Made by a program: the position numbers and the translations under genes. From Bryobacterales bacterium (GTDB taxonomy: Bacteria; Acidobacteriota; Terriglobia; Bryobacterales; Bryobacteraceae), in NCBI GenBank assembly GCA_003170295.1, contig PNAJ01000057.1, positions 62,001 to 126,000 on the forward strand: a DNA stretch of 64,000 bases. The letters run 5' to 3'. Numbering within the stretch: position 1 is the first letter of the stretch; each line of letters starts with the position of its first letter. Of the stretch, positions 58,788 through 63,915 are shown in pieces. The notes beneath the pieces are model-generated. The model worked only from the letters and a program-made list of their open reading frames with translations. It did not search any database and was not told the origin of the DNA.

Positions 58788-59897
58788 ATGCGCCTGTCCG
58801 TAAATAACTTGTCCATGCCTCTGTTCGCGATGATGGCTGTCACGCCGATCGTCGCCGGTCCTTTAGGGTTTAATGTCACCCTCCTTGCATCCGACCAACC
58901 CGGCGTCGCGGCGACGACGGACCCGGGCCTCCTCAATGCATGGGGTCTCGCCGCTTCTCCGGCCTCTCCGTTCTGGATCAGCGCGAACGGCTCCGGTACA
59001 TCCGTGCTTTATAACGGAGCGGGGGCAAAAGTGGCACTGGTCGTGACGATCCCTGGCGCCGGCACTCCTACCGGGATAGTCTTCAGTGGTGTGGGCGGAT
59101 CGTTCAATAGCGATTCATTTCTATTCAGTTCTGAAGACGGGACGATCTCGGGATGGAGAGGCGCGCTGGGAACGACCGCTGAGACACTGGTCGCGGGGAG
59201 CGCCGCTAACGTCTATAAAGGCCTCACGCTGGGAACCGTGGGTGGAAGCACCTACGCCTACGCCGCCAATTTTCGGACGGGAGCCATCGACGTGATTAAA
59301 GGGAATGCCGCGGATCCGGGCCTTAGCGGCTCTTTTGTGGACGGGAGCCTGCCAGCCGGTTACGCGCCCTTCAATATACAGAATCTCGGCGGCGTACTTT
59401 ACGTCACCTATGCGGTGCAGGATAGTGCGAAGCGCGATGACGTGCCTGGCGCGGGTAATGGCATCGTCGACAAATTCGATTTGAACGGTAATTTCCTCGG
59501 TCGCGTGGTAACGGGAGGCGCGTTGGATTCTCCTTGGGGACTTGCCCTGGCTCCTGCGGGGTTTGGCGATGTTGCGGGAGATCTCCTCGTCGGGAATTTC
59601 GGCGATGGCACGATTCATGCCTACGATCCGTCCACGGGAACTCTTATCGAGACACTGCAGGACGCGGGCGGGAATCCCATCATGATCGACGGTTTGTGGG
59701 CTCTCCGCTTCGGCAATGGTTCTGGATCGGCAAGCGTGACAAATCTTTATTTCACGGCCGGCCCCAATCACGAAGCCGACGGGCTCTTCGGCGATCTGGC
59801 GACTGTTCCAGAGCCTGCAACCTGGGCACTGGCCGGGCTCGGCGCTGCTGTGGTCCTTCTGCGGAAGCGGCTGCTTGGTTCTCCTTCGAAGAATTAG
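58788..59897 (+). CDS. TIGR03118 family protein with PEP-CTERM sorting signal
   Basis: 369 residues. A signal peptide covers about 1-24; the core is a beta-propeller-like array (NAWGLAASPASPFWISANGS, GTPTGIVFSGVGGSF, YAANFRTGAIDVIKGN, DSPWGLALAPAGFGD). The C-terminus VPEPATWALAGLGAAVVLL-RKR is a full PEP-CTERM: the VPEP motif, a hydrophobic helix, then basic residues. An exosortase (EpsH-like) must cut it elsewhere in the genome. The upstream gap (58640-58787) is AT-richer and may carry the promoter. Probably a surface or extracellular-matrix protein. Confidence 0.92.
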   Translation: MRLSVNNLSMPLFAMMAVTPIVAGPLGFNVTLLASDQPGVAATTDPGLLNAWGLAASPASPFWISANGSGTSVLYNGAGAKVALVVTIPGAGTPTGIVFSGVGGSFNSDSFLFSSEDGTISGWRGALGTTAETLVAGSAANVYKGLTLGTVGGSTYAYAANFRTGAIDVIKGNAADPGLSGSFVDGSLPAGYAPFNIQNLGGVLYVTYAVQDSAKRDDVPGAGNGIVDKFDLNGNFLGRVVTGGALDSPWGLALAPAGFGDVAGDLLVGNFGDGTIHAYDPSTGTLIETLQDAGGNPIMIDGLWALRFGNGSGSASVTNLYFTAGPNHEADGLFGDLATVPEPATWALAGLGAAVVLLRKRLLGSPSKN

Positions 59898-59984: not shown

Positions 59985-61196
59985 ATGAATCGACGTTTTC
60001 AATTCTCCGTGGTCGCCGTATCCACTTGCGTGGTCACGCTCCTGCTGTTCGGGGCGGTCCATGGGCGCAGCGCCTCGCCGGACAATCCGTACAACAACCT
60101 GGGCGTTTATGCCGAGGTGTTGAACAAGATCAAGCTGGATTACGTCGAGGAACCGGACATGAAGGCGGTGACGCTGGGCGCGATCAACGGGATGCTCGAA
60201 TCGATCGACCCATATGCCAGCTATCTGAACGCGGATCAGTATAAGCAGTACGTGAAATCGAAGGACTCGAAGAAAGCCGACGTCGGGCTGGTGCTGTCGA
60301 AGCGGTTCGGATACATGGGCGTTGTGGGCGCGCTGCCAGGGTCGCCGGCGGGGAAGGCCGGGTTGGGGACGGGCGATGTGATCGAATCGATCAGCAACGT
60401 TTCGACGCGCGACATGCCGCTGGCGTTCGCGGAGCTGCTGTTCCAGGGCGACGCGGGCTCGACCATCGAAATTAGCGTGCTGCGGGCGCGCAAATCGGAA
60501 GCGCAGAAGGTGACTCTGACCCGCGCGGTGCTGGTTTATCCTCCACTGGTGGCGAAGCTGGTGACCGATCAAGGGCCCGCGCCAATCGGATTGATTGAGA
60601 CAGTGACGTTAGTTCCTGGCCGTGTGAAAGAGATCGCGGCGAAAATCGCGGAGCTGGAAAAACAGGGTGCCAAGAAGTTTGTGCTCGATCTGCGGCACTG
60701 CTCGACGGGTCCGGATGAAGATGGAATTGCGCTGGCGAATCTGTTCATGGATAAGGGGCTGATCACCTACACGCTGGGACAGAAATCGGCCCGGCAGGAC
60801 TTCCAGGCGTCGGCGGCGAAGGCGGTTACTAAGCTGCCTCTGGTCGTGCTGTTGAATCGCGGGACTGCGGGTGCGGCGGAGATCGCGGCGGCGGCGCTCA
60901 TCGATTCCAAGCGGGCGGAATCGGTCGGCGAGCGCACCTACGGCGATGCGGCAATTCGCAAAGCGATCACGATGGACGACGGAAGCGCGGTGATTTTGTC
61001 GGTCGCGAAGTATTATTTCCCGAGCGGTAAGGCGATCCAGGATACCGGCGTCACGCCAGGTACTCTACAAGCAGACGCGGATAATGCCGCGCCGACGGAA
61101 GACGATGAGGAAGGCGATACGCCTCCTGCAACCGCGGCGGCGCCCAAGACCGGCGATCCGGTGCTCGCGAAGGCTTTCGAGATCTTGAAGAAGTAA
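59985..61196 (+). CDS. S41 (C-terminal processing) peptidase homologue, catalytic residues lost
   Basis: 403 residues. An N-terminal membrane anchor (VSTCVVTLLLFGAVHG) precedes a CtpA-type helical cap (YAEVLNKIKLDYVEEPDMKA), a PDZ domain at about 100-180 (VVGALPGSPAGKAGLGTGDV) and the tail-protease core. Where active enzymes have a Ser (G-x-A-S-A-S-E) this protein reads NRGTAGAAE, putting G296 in place of the nucleophile; where the general-base Lys lies (GKGxVQ), it reads G-D321-AAIR. Both catalytic positions are thus lost. Fold-preserving strands (KYYFPSGKAIQDTGVTP) remain. Overlaps fmdB by one base. Confidence 0.9.
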   Translation: MNRRFQFSVVAVSTCVVTLLLFGAVHGRSASPDNPYNNLGVYAEVLNKIKLDYVEEPDMKAVTLGAINGMLESIDPYASYLNADQYKQYVKSKDSKKADVGLVLSKRFGYMGVVGALPGSPAGKAGLGTGDVIESISNVSTRDMPLAFAELLFQGDAGSTIEISVLRARKSEAQKVTLTRAVLVYPPLVAKLVTDQGPAPIGLIETVTLVPGRVKEIAAKIAELEKQGAKKFVLDLRHCSTGPDEDGIALANLFMDKGLITYTLGQKSARQDFQASAAKAVTKLPLVVLLNRGTAGAAEIAAAALIDSKRAESVGERTYGDAAIRKAITMDDGSAVILSVAKYYFPSGKAIQDTGVTPGTLQADADNAAPTEDDEEGDTPPATAAAPKTGDPVLAKAFEILKK

Positions 61197-61564
61197 TGCC
61201 AATTTACGAATACCGCTGTGAGAAGTGTGGCAAAGTCTTCGAAGTGCTGCAGAGGTTTTCAGACGATCCGGTTAAGATTCATGAAAATTGCGGCGGCGAG
61301 GTCGAGAAGCTCATCTCCCATTCCGCGTTCCAGTTGAAGGGTAGCGGTTGGTACGCAAGCGACTACGCGAAGGGAACTTCGACGGCGCCGAATGCCAAGG
61401 GCGACGGCAAATCCGAGAGCGGTGCGTCGGAATCCAAAGCTGAGGGCAAATCGGAAACGGCATCCGATTCCAAGAGCGAGTCAAAATCCGATTCCAAGAG
61501 TGAATCGAAGTCTGAGACAAAGACCGAGTCGAAGCCCGCCGTCACCACTTCTAAAAGCGACTAG
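61196..61564 (+). CDS. FmdB-type zinc ribbon protein with Ser/Lys/Glu-rich tail
   Basis: 122 residues. The N-terminal 40 residues (PIYEYRCEKCGKVFEVLQRF, then HENCGGEVEKLIS) form the FmdB zinc ribbon with C-x2-C and N-C-G-G elements, though the second knuckle has one cysteine rather than two. The following GWYASDYAKG is family-typical. The last 60 residues are a K-S-E-S repeat tail, low in hydrophobic residues and probably disordered. Shares its first base with the stop of the S41 homologue. Regulatory role is suggested by the family name only. Confidence 0.9.
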   Translation: MPIYEYRCEKCGKVFEVLQRFSDDPVKIHENCGGEVEKLISHSAFQLKGSGWYASDYAKGTSTAPNAKGDGKSESGASESKAEGKSETASDSKSESKSDSKSESKSETKTESKPAVTTSKSD

Positions 61565-61602: not shown

Positions 61603-63915
61603 CTAGAAGATCCGGTCCTGTTTCTTCAGCGTCCCGACCGTGCCAATGTTCGATAGCGAGAATGCAAACTGGATCTCGCTGTTGTTGGTGGTGCCGAAGT
61701 TCAGGCGGAGATAGCGCACGCTGATGCCGCAGCAGTCTGTGTTTCGCGTCGCCTGCACCTGCCAATACGTGGGCCGGCCCAGCCGGAAATCGTAGGCGAC
61801 GTTGCCGCCATAATTCCAGCCGCGGCGGTTGGATTTTCCATACCGGATACCCGCGTTGAGTTGATCCGAGTTTGGGAACAGGATCGGGTTCGTGGCGATA
61901 ACCGTGTGGCCAAGCGTCCAGAAGATCTGGTCGATCCGCCCATCCAGCGTCACGCTGCTGTTTACGATGGAGTGACGTTCCAGATCGTAGTCCGTCCGCC
62001 ACTCAAAGTTGACCTTCGATTGCACCCGTATATCGCTGACGATGGGAGAATCGTGGCGGCGTCCGTCGAGGAACGCGAATCCCGTCAATTCGATCTCACT
62101 TTCGACCACGTTCCGCACGTTCGGGAGAATGGCCCCGCCGAACGTGGGATCGAAATAGCGGTCGTACCGAATCTGCCAGGACAGCAATTCCTTGACTGTG
62201 CCGTTCTTGTCTTTGGTCATCAGGCGGTTGGTAAGCGAAAACTCGACCTGATTGGTATCGGACAGGAGTTCAGTCTCATCGAAGCGGACCAGGCGGCTGA
62301 AATTGTCGATGCCGCTGACATCTTTATAAGTGATGCGGGGCTCGATGACGTGCTTCACTTTTTCGCCCATCCATTTCGGGGCGTCAAAAATGCGGGCCAG
62401 CGACGGCAGGATCAGATCCACTGAGACGCTGCGGGAACTCCGCAACACATTCTGCCCGTTCACGATGGGCGTGTTGTAGACCGAGCCCGTTACAAAGCTC
62501 GAATCATAGAATGTTTCGCGAATCCCGAACGTCGGGACAATTTGAATATCCTTCCAGCGGAAGGCCGTGGTGATTTGGGGGCCGGCGTCCAGGCGGTCGA
62601 CAAACTGGCGGGTCTGAAATTCCGCCTGGTTGCGGTCGAGCAGGCCGGCGCTGGAATCGAAATACACCCAGAAGGGCCAGTTGAAGACGTTGACTTCGTG
62701 TTCGCGCTGGGAAAAATCGACTTCGGGGAGCTTGCGAATCTCGATAGTGGTCTTCGCCACAGGGTCCAGAAAATTCACGTTGCGCTGGGCGACGACGTTG
62801 AAGTCGAAATCCTTCCAGTGTTTCGTGATGAAGCCGACCGAATGGGTTTCTCCGTAAACCGCCTCATTATAGGATTGCGTGAACTGCTGCAGGAAAGCGA
62901 GTGAAGACAAATAGTTTAGCTCGCCGCGCGCCTCCCATCCGTCGCCAAAATCGTACTTCGATTTCAAAGTGACGTGCAGGCCCTGATCGGAGGTGGTTCC
63001 AGTCATAGCGCTCGTCCTGATCCCAAACACATTCAGGTCGAAATCGGACTTCGGGTTGAACTTCCCCCGGAGTTCGGCGAAGTTCGCCAAACCGGCTCCG
63101 GTATAGTAGGTGCCTTCGTAGGTGAGGTCGAAACTGCGGTTGATGGCCCAGTAATAACCGAATCCCGCTGTATATCCGTGCGTGGAGCTGCTCCCTACGC
63201 CGGGGATGAGCAATCCGCTCCTACGTGGCTGTTTCTTAAGGGACTTATAAAAATACGGGCTGTAGAAAAGAGGGATCTTTTTCAAATAGAACCACGAGTT
63301 ATGAGTGATGGCGTGGTTGCCGGGAACGATTACAAAGCTTGGACCTTTGAAAATCCACCACGGGTCGGGCACGGTGCAGTCGGTGAGAAAGCCATTGTGG
63401 ATGATATAGGTATCGTCTTTCCTTTCTGCCCATTGGCCTTCAAAATAGAAAGGATTCGTTGTAGTGTTCAGACCTGGCCGGGCCTGGATGGTGGACGCCG
63501 CGGATCCCTTCACGTTGTAGAAATCGCCGTTGTCTTCGTCCAGGTAATACTGAGCTTTATCGCAATCAAGCTTTTCCCCGCGCGCGAAGTATTCGAAATG
63601 CACGTGTCCGCGCGCCTCCACGTAGCCTGTGTCCGTGTTCCAGTCGATCTCGTCGGCCTTGATCTGCATGTCGGGCGTCTCAATGCGGACATGGACACGC
63701 AAGTGACGCCAGCTTCCCACGACCTCCTGCTCGCTCTCCGGGGAGACGAAAACTTCTTTCCGATCGGTCGGGGCGTCGGGACGATTGGGGACGACTTTCT
63801 TGTTCGGATCGGGGCTCACTTGTACGGGTTGCGGAGGGGGTGGCGGTAAAGCTGGACGGAAGACTTGCGCCTGTAAGTTGAACACTAGAATAAATAGAAG
63901 GGCTATGCGTACCAT
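61603..63915 (-). CDS. lptD: LPS-assembly protein LptD
   Basis: 770 residues with a short leader (MVRIALLFILVFNLQAQ). A proline-rich stretch (LPPPPPQPVQVSPDPNK) leads to the OstA/LptA-like beta-jellyroll (MQIKADEIDWNTDTGYVEAR, GHVHFEY, YYLDEDNGDFYNV, YIIHNGFLTDCTVPDPWW). The barrel domain begins near GLLIPGVGSSSTHGYTAGFG and contains the PVY-like LFYSPYFYKSL. It is the outer-membrane translocon that inserts lipopolysaccharide, so the cell has LPS. The two cysteines near the jellyroll and the one pair near the end (TDCCGISV) differ from the E. coli disulfide layout. Confidence 0.93.
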   Translation of the reverse strand: MVRIALLFILVFNLQAQVFRPALPPPPPQPVQVSPDPNKKVVPNRPDAPTDRKEVFVSPESEQEVVGSWRHLRVHVRIETPDMQIKADEIDWNTDTGYVEARGHVHFEYFARGEKLDCDKAQYYLDEDNGDFYNVKGSAASTIQARPGLNTTTNPFYFEGQWAERKDDTYIIHNGFLTDCTVPDPWWIFKGPSFVIVPGNHAITHNSWFYLKKIPLFYSPYFYKSLKKQPRRSGLLIPGVGSSSTHGYTAGFGYYWAINRSFDLTYEGTYYTGAGLANFAELRGKFNPKSDFDLNVFGIRTSAMTGTTSDQGLHVTLKSKYDFGDGWEARGELNYLSSLAFLQQFTQSYNEAVYGETHSVGFITKHWKDFDFNVVAQRNVNFLDPVAKTTIEIRKLPEVDFSQREHEVNVFNWPFWVYFDSSAGLLDRNQAEFQTRQFVDRLDAGPQITTAFRWKDIQIVPTFGIRETFYDSSFVTGSVYNTPIVNGQNVLRSSRSVSVDLILPSLARIFDAPKWMGEKVKHVIEPRITYKDVSGIDNFSRLVRFDETELLSDTNQVEFSLTNRLMTKDKNGTVKELLSWQIRYDRYFDPTFGGAILPNVRNVVESEIELTGFAFLDGRRHDSPIVSDIRVQSKVNFEWRTDYDLERHSIVNSSVTLDGRIDQIFWTLGHTVIATNPILFPNSDQLNAGIRYGKSNRRGWNYGGNVAYDFRLGRPTYWQVQATRNTDCCGISVRYLRLNFGTTNNSEIQFAFSLSNIGTVGTLKKQDRIF

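Follow-up and report, generated by a model that had tools for sequence, protein, structure and literature searches.

A conserved CtpA-type S41 pseudo-protease in Bryobacteraceae, with catalytically dead relatives across the Acidobacteriota

Work on CtpA and Prc has treated them as proteases that clear away cell-wall hydrolases, and the TPR lipoproteins LbcA and NlpI are adaptors of the active enzymes. Two non-catalytic proteins also bear on what follows: EnvC, a relative of LytM/M23 hydrolases that regulates cell-wall enzymes, and IRBP, an animal retinoid carrier that is a non-peptidase S41 homologue. The protein described here is encoded in a 64,000-nucleotide stretch of Bryobacterales DNA (the whole of which we call the window), and the closest solved structures by sequence are the CtpA proteins of Pseudomonas and Helicobacter. 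Pseudomonas CtpA (PaCtpA; 7rpq, 8sxh; PMC11021448, PMC12569750) has the same fold, places its PDZ domain before the S41 core and is ~29% identical to the window protein. Its operon order, envC–ctpA–PA5135, in which PA5135 is the YibQ/SddA orthologue (PMC12569750), recurs at relatives of the window protein from other classes of Acidobacteriota. By contrast, the window protein lacks the Ser, Lys, His and NPGG loop of PaCtpA, adjoins fmdB rather than EnvC, and has no known adaptor. Helicobacter pylori CtpA (9ku0, 9ku3; PMC12749690) likewise matches it in fold and domain order but has an active Ser300–Lys325 pair; the laboratory triple mutant S300A/K325A/Q329A of that enzyme approximates the natural state of the window protein. 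Prc/Tsp of Escherichia coli and CtpB of Bacillus subtilis are PDZ-gated S41 proteins too, but are active and less similar. IRBP and other S41 non-peptidases share an S41 fold without peptidase activity but belong to a different lineage, whereas EnvC is comparable as a non-catalytic hydrolase relative with an unrelated fold.

The window protein has 403 residues and is encoded by a reading frame that runs from an ATG start to a TAA stop at positions 59,985–61,196 (+ strand). Pfam detects Peptidase_S41 (PF03572, E = 1.8e-32) and PDZ_6 (E = 2.7e-07, residues 113–167), and the NCBIfam model for C-terminal processing peptidases, TIGR00225, scores 207.7 bits, slightly below its curated cut-off of 218.6. 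An AlphaFold (AF2) model built on an alignment of 66 sequences (pLDDT 85.2, pTM 0.78) finds its top PDB match in Foldseek with PaCtpA (8sxh_B, E = 3.9e-31), and several CtpA chains align with TM scores of 0.7–0.8. Pfam, the model and the structural match thus agree on a CtpA-type S41 core with a PDZ domain, as the first-pass annotation of this DNA had supposed. A hydrophobic helix at residues 3–26 (59,991–60,062, +) is predicted to be a membrane anchor or signal peptide. The PDZ domain spans residues ~99–181 (60,279–60,527, +) and includes the carboxylate-binding loop DVGL (99–102), in which Gly101 is present in every family member sampled; because this x-hydrophobic-Gly-hydrophobic loop is retained, a working PDZ domain is plausible.

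Similarity alone would label such genes S41 peptidases, an annotation that the active site corrects. We set the register by alignment to PaCtpA 7rpq and its S302A mutant 7rqh, in which the mutated position is visible, and a single offset puts S302, K327, Q331, H84, G246 and F325 of PaCtpA on the correct letters. Alignment to PaCtpA and to orthologues places Gly296 (60,870–60,872, +) at the position of the catalytic Ser (Ser302) and Asp321 (60,945–60,947, +) at that of the catalytic Lys (Lys327), bearing out the replacements claimed from the sequence at first reading. By PaCtpA numbering, Tyr77 (60,213–60,215, +) falls at His84, the third catalytic residue; the DLRxNPGG loop of the P1 region has degenerated to DLRHCSTG (residues 235–242; 60,687–60,710, +), with CSTG for NPGG and Thr241 for Gly246; and Arg325 (60,957–60,959, +) stands at Gln331. 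In vivo, PaCtpA S302A and K327A have no activity and G246M almost none, H84A is reduced in activity, and Q331A has a small effect (PMC11021448). Because the Ser, Lys, His84, Gly246 and Gln331 positions are all changed, the alteration extends to several distinct elements of the proteolytic machinery: neither the Ser–Lys dyad nor the His and DLRxNPGG loop of a CtpA-type peptidase is present. The earlier impression that the strands around the dyad are well preserved therefore holds for the fold but not for the active site.

Misalignment of the dyad is ruled out by the 7rqh mutant, by the numbering check and by relatives from one order, which carry Ser and Lys exactly in columns 296 and 321. The conserved columns near the site were also searched for an alternative Ser–Lys pair in register, and no new Ser or Lys column there is constant across the phylum-level family. 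His occupies the His84 position in all nine active S41 proteins compared, whereas 106 of 110 Bryobacteraceae loci have Tyr or Phe. Position 325 is Arg in 105 of the 110 Bryobacteraceae loci and Gln in nearly all other sequences. In the Bryobacteraceae alignment (A1), the change of Lys to Asp321 coincides with that of Gln to Arg325 and with an invariant Ala322, a combination confined to this family. We would guess that Asp321 and Arg325 could form a salt bridge.

The dead site is shared by the family. A search of 150 Bryobacteraceae genomes matched 149 at E ≤ 1e-20, nearly all with an orthologue ~49–68% identical to the window protein. A named genome collection supplied another 80 loci, under titles that are nearly all Bryobacterales, Bryobacteraceae, Solibacteraceae, Terriglobia or Acidobacteria; some genomes are common to both sets, and counts were made on 98 distinct sequences or 110 loci. 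Position 321 is never Lys, being Asp in 91 of the 98 sequences and in 100 of the 110 loci. Ser is found at 296 in eight of the distinct sequences, every one with Asp at 321, and none of the 98 has an intact dyad. The reading frame is open in nearly all orthologous loci, and dN/dS is 0.02–0.13 in the 27 close pairs that gave finite values (Nei–Gojobori, own script). Among 176 sequences from three groups the catalytic columns vary freely, while Tyr53, Val54, Gly69, Asp75, Gly101, Asp131, Asp235, Arg237, Glu299, Gly315, Gly320 and Pro358, among others, are invariant. Glu134 and Lys342 are conserved residues specific to the family and may mark a new interface.

Death of the site in all Bryobacteraceae orthologues sampled, purifying selection and a correct fold together define a conserved pseudoenzyme, and the suggestion that this is a conserved pseudo-protease is strongly supported. 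The window copy is not simply damaged, because the only orthologues with the normal dyad belong to a distant order of the phylum; the dead orthologues and the dN/dS values rule out local damage as well.

Our survey of the dead form covers the Acidobacteriota, where 183 of 297 genomes searched contain relatives at 1e-40. In detail we sampled 29 loci from a second (sister) family of the window's class, probably Terriglobales, as well as 37 loci outside that class. Gly occupies 296 in every sister-family locus, and the residue at 321 is E, V, D, I or Q. The 37 include one Ser–Lys pair (L171) and one Gly–Lys pair (L170), and the rest have neither. The intact dyad is thus absent from 65 of the 66 relatives (29/29 and 36/37), and across the phylum position 321 may be D, E, A, R, V, M or Q and position 296 G, D, N, S, A or R. 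In a quick maximum-likelihood tree of 91 rows, rooted on intact sequences, with poorly settled deepest forks and one long row (L167), a branch with support 100 separates all of these relatives from the intact acidobacterial paralogues and from PaCtpA and H. pylori CtpA. The window protein thereby falls within the clade of EnvC-linked acidobacterial genes.

The link to EnvC is seen in other classes, where an EnvC-like gene (coiled coil plus M23) lies directly upstream of the S41 gene in 12 loci, mostly overlapping it or within ~100 bases; these EnvC-linked relatives include L150, L157, L165–L167, L170 and L171. In one acidobacterial order the arrangement is EnvC–S41–SddA, the same as in Pseudomonas, and a PF04748 divergent polysaccharide deacetylase gene follows the S41 gene in L192 and L194. 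The 17 readable genes from the order of the L194 genome differ at the dyad, with Ser–Lys in ten, Ala–Lys in two, Gly–Lys in two, Ser–Arg in one and Gly–Arg in two, and these are living intermediates of dyad loss. Catalysis may have changed in this order before the dyad was lost, since even its Ser–Lys members have Phe at the His84 position and mostly NAGG in place of NPGG. Few changes are needed by parsimony on the tree; because regain of a dyad is unlikely, we read the pattern as several independent losses, with deep forks too uncertain for a count. In the order of genome G178, EnvC-linked S41 genes (L209–L226) with intact, half-lost and lost dyads occur together as a natural inactivation series.

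In the window, the S41 gene is flanked by fmdB and a PEP-CTERM gene and does not lie directly behind envC. The PEP-CTERM protein, of the TIGR03118 family (372 bits), is encoded upstream at 58,788–59,897 (+). Downstream, fmdB (61,196–61,564, +; Zn_ribbon_8, 4.3e-17; TIGR02605, 2.9e-20) encodes a zinc-ribbon protein and begins on the last A of the S41 stop codon (TAATG, 61,194–61,198), an overlap of one nucleotide. The translational linkage to fmdB proposed earlier thus stands, and fmdB lies ≤200 nt downstream in 81 of the 95 distinct Bryobacteraceae loci whose sequence extends far enough downstream, but the link is specific to this lineage. Neighbours that are older, and that say more about the protein, are EnvC, SddA and PBP1a. 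In the sister family, PBP1a lies shortly downstream of the S41 gene in 26 of 29 loci, and two Bryobacteraceae loci (L028, L072) have the order S41–fmdB–PBP1a, which may bridge the two arrangements. In other classes, RuvX and MltG are divergently upstream and ThrS is downstream, and these may be mere housekeeping company. The tail of fmdB (61,393–61,561) is a low-complexity Ser/Lys/Glu/Asp repeat (SKSESKSDSK...), and an LptD-like outer-membrane protein is encoded convergently with fmdB at 61,603–63,915 (−).

The FtsX extracellular domain (FtsX_ECD) occurs in about half of the phylum genomes sampled (60 of 119) and in none of the 13 genomes of the window's class among those listed (its own and 12 of the sister family), the list leaving out 39 genomes that had no match. 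EnvC matches in 41 family genomes lie mainly in the M23 domain, and those that go beyond it take in just a portion of the coiled coil. Because FtsX_ECD was not found and these matches are partial, the dead S41 protein seems to have been kept where its old partners FtsX and EnvC were lost, and dependence on FtsEX–EnvC in this organism is unsupported. The genome has one Amidase_3 gene, and gene content makes amidase control without EnvC possible. It also encodes two intact CtpA-like paralogues (L180, L181), each 28–29% identical to the window protein, and four more distant S41 proteins (L183–L186, on C112, C144, C38 and C28), of which L183 has the Ser and no Lys at the CtpA position, as might be expected if it is another S41 type.

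Strong selection has preserved the same dead version in most of the phylum, which suggests a useful job that needs no cutting, probably in cell-wall upkeep. Most likely the window protein works in the periplasm without cutting, in a binding or regulatory role within peptidoglycan metabolism, and it could act as a scaffold or inhibitor. It would cross the membrane and stay anchored at its periplasmic face, where the PDZ domain and former substrate groove could continue to engage the tails of proteins or the enzymes of the cell wall; binding without cutting could then shield, recruit or restrain peptidoglycan enzymes (PBP1a, lytic transglycosylases, amidases or endopeptidases), and an adaptor may take part. 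Taken jointly, origin and role make up our best explanation, which we favor by a modest balance of probability: an inactivated acidobacterial descendant of the CtpA found behind EnvC elsewhere, now binding peptidoglycan enzymes. Counting against it are the neighbor of the gene in the window's family, which is fmdB rather than any wall gene, and the FtsX_ECD and EnvC results above. More tentatively, at somewhat less than an even chance, the EnvC-locus CtpA was converted phylum-wide to a non-cutting protein by repeated dyad loss, and its role in controlling peptidoglycan is under selection, requires no cutting, outlived FtsEX–EnvC and was rewired to PBP1a or fmdB.

The main rival, which we consider unlikely, is that the dead copy joins mixed oligomers with the intact paralogues and tunes them, by damping or activating. 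CtpA proteins form dimers and hexamers with subunits that switch back and forth between an active and a resting state (PMC11021448, PMC12749690), and two potential partners exist in the genome, but at 28–29% identity the dead protein is distant from both and its family forms a separate clade, and no linkage was seen between its gene and theirs. Continued cutting by a rebuilt site, with another nucleophile or base in place of Ser–Lys, is improbable. Thr294 and Glu299 vary little or not at all and the Asp321–Arg325 pair is common to Bryobacteraceae, yet active enzymes have Ser and Glu at the places of Thr294 and Glu299, and with 296 and 321 variable over the phylum and the P1 loop lost there is no constant new catalytic set. 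We give equally little credence to an IRBP-like carrier whose groove holds a small hydrophobic molecule: the window protein does show a weak match to this S41 non-peptidase (E = 6.7e-4), but only over residues 282–363, and its family is much closer to bacterial CtpA and keeps the PDZ domain. A decaying relic without function would explain why active-site columns vary freely once cutting is irrelevant, but the low dN/dS, the open frames, near-universal presence in the family and conserved residues peculiar to it (Glu134 and Lys342, for example) make this reading highly improbable, and the evidence for selection already disproves it in its simple form.

A natural, phylum-wide dead CtpA appears not to have been described before: S41 non-peptidases (IRBP) and laboratory dead CtpA mutants were already known, and a literature search on acidobacterial dead CtpA or inactive bacterial S41 proteins, with subscription papers and preprints outside its scope, returned nothing on point. 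If the phylum-wide conversion is true, CtpA proteins generally may have a non-proteolytic job. A deeply conserved dead branch at the ancestral EnvC locus, with intermediates that are intact or have lost Ser, Lys or both, makes a cutting-independent role testable. In one EnvC-linked locus (L187, 8,650–10,641), a gene with TPR-like repeats begins 20 nt behind the dead S41 gene.
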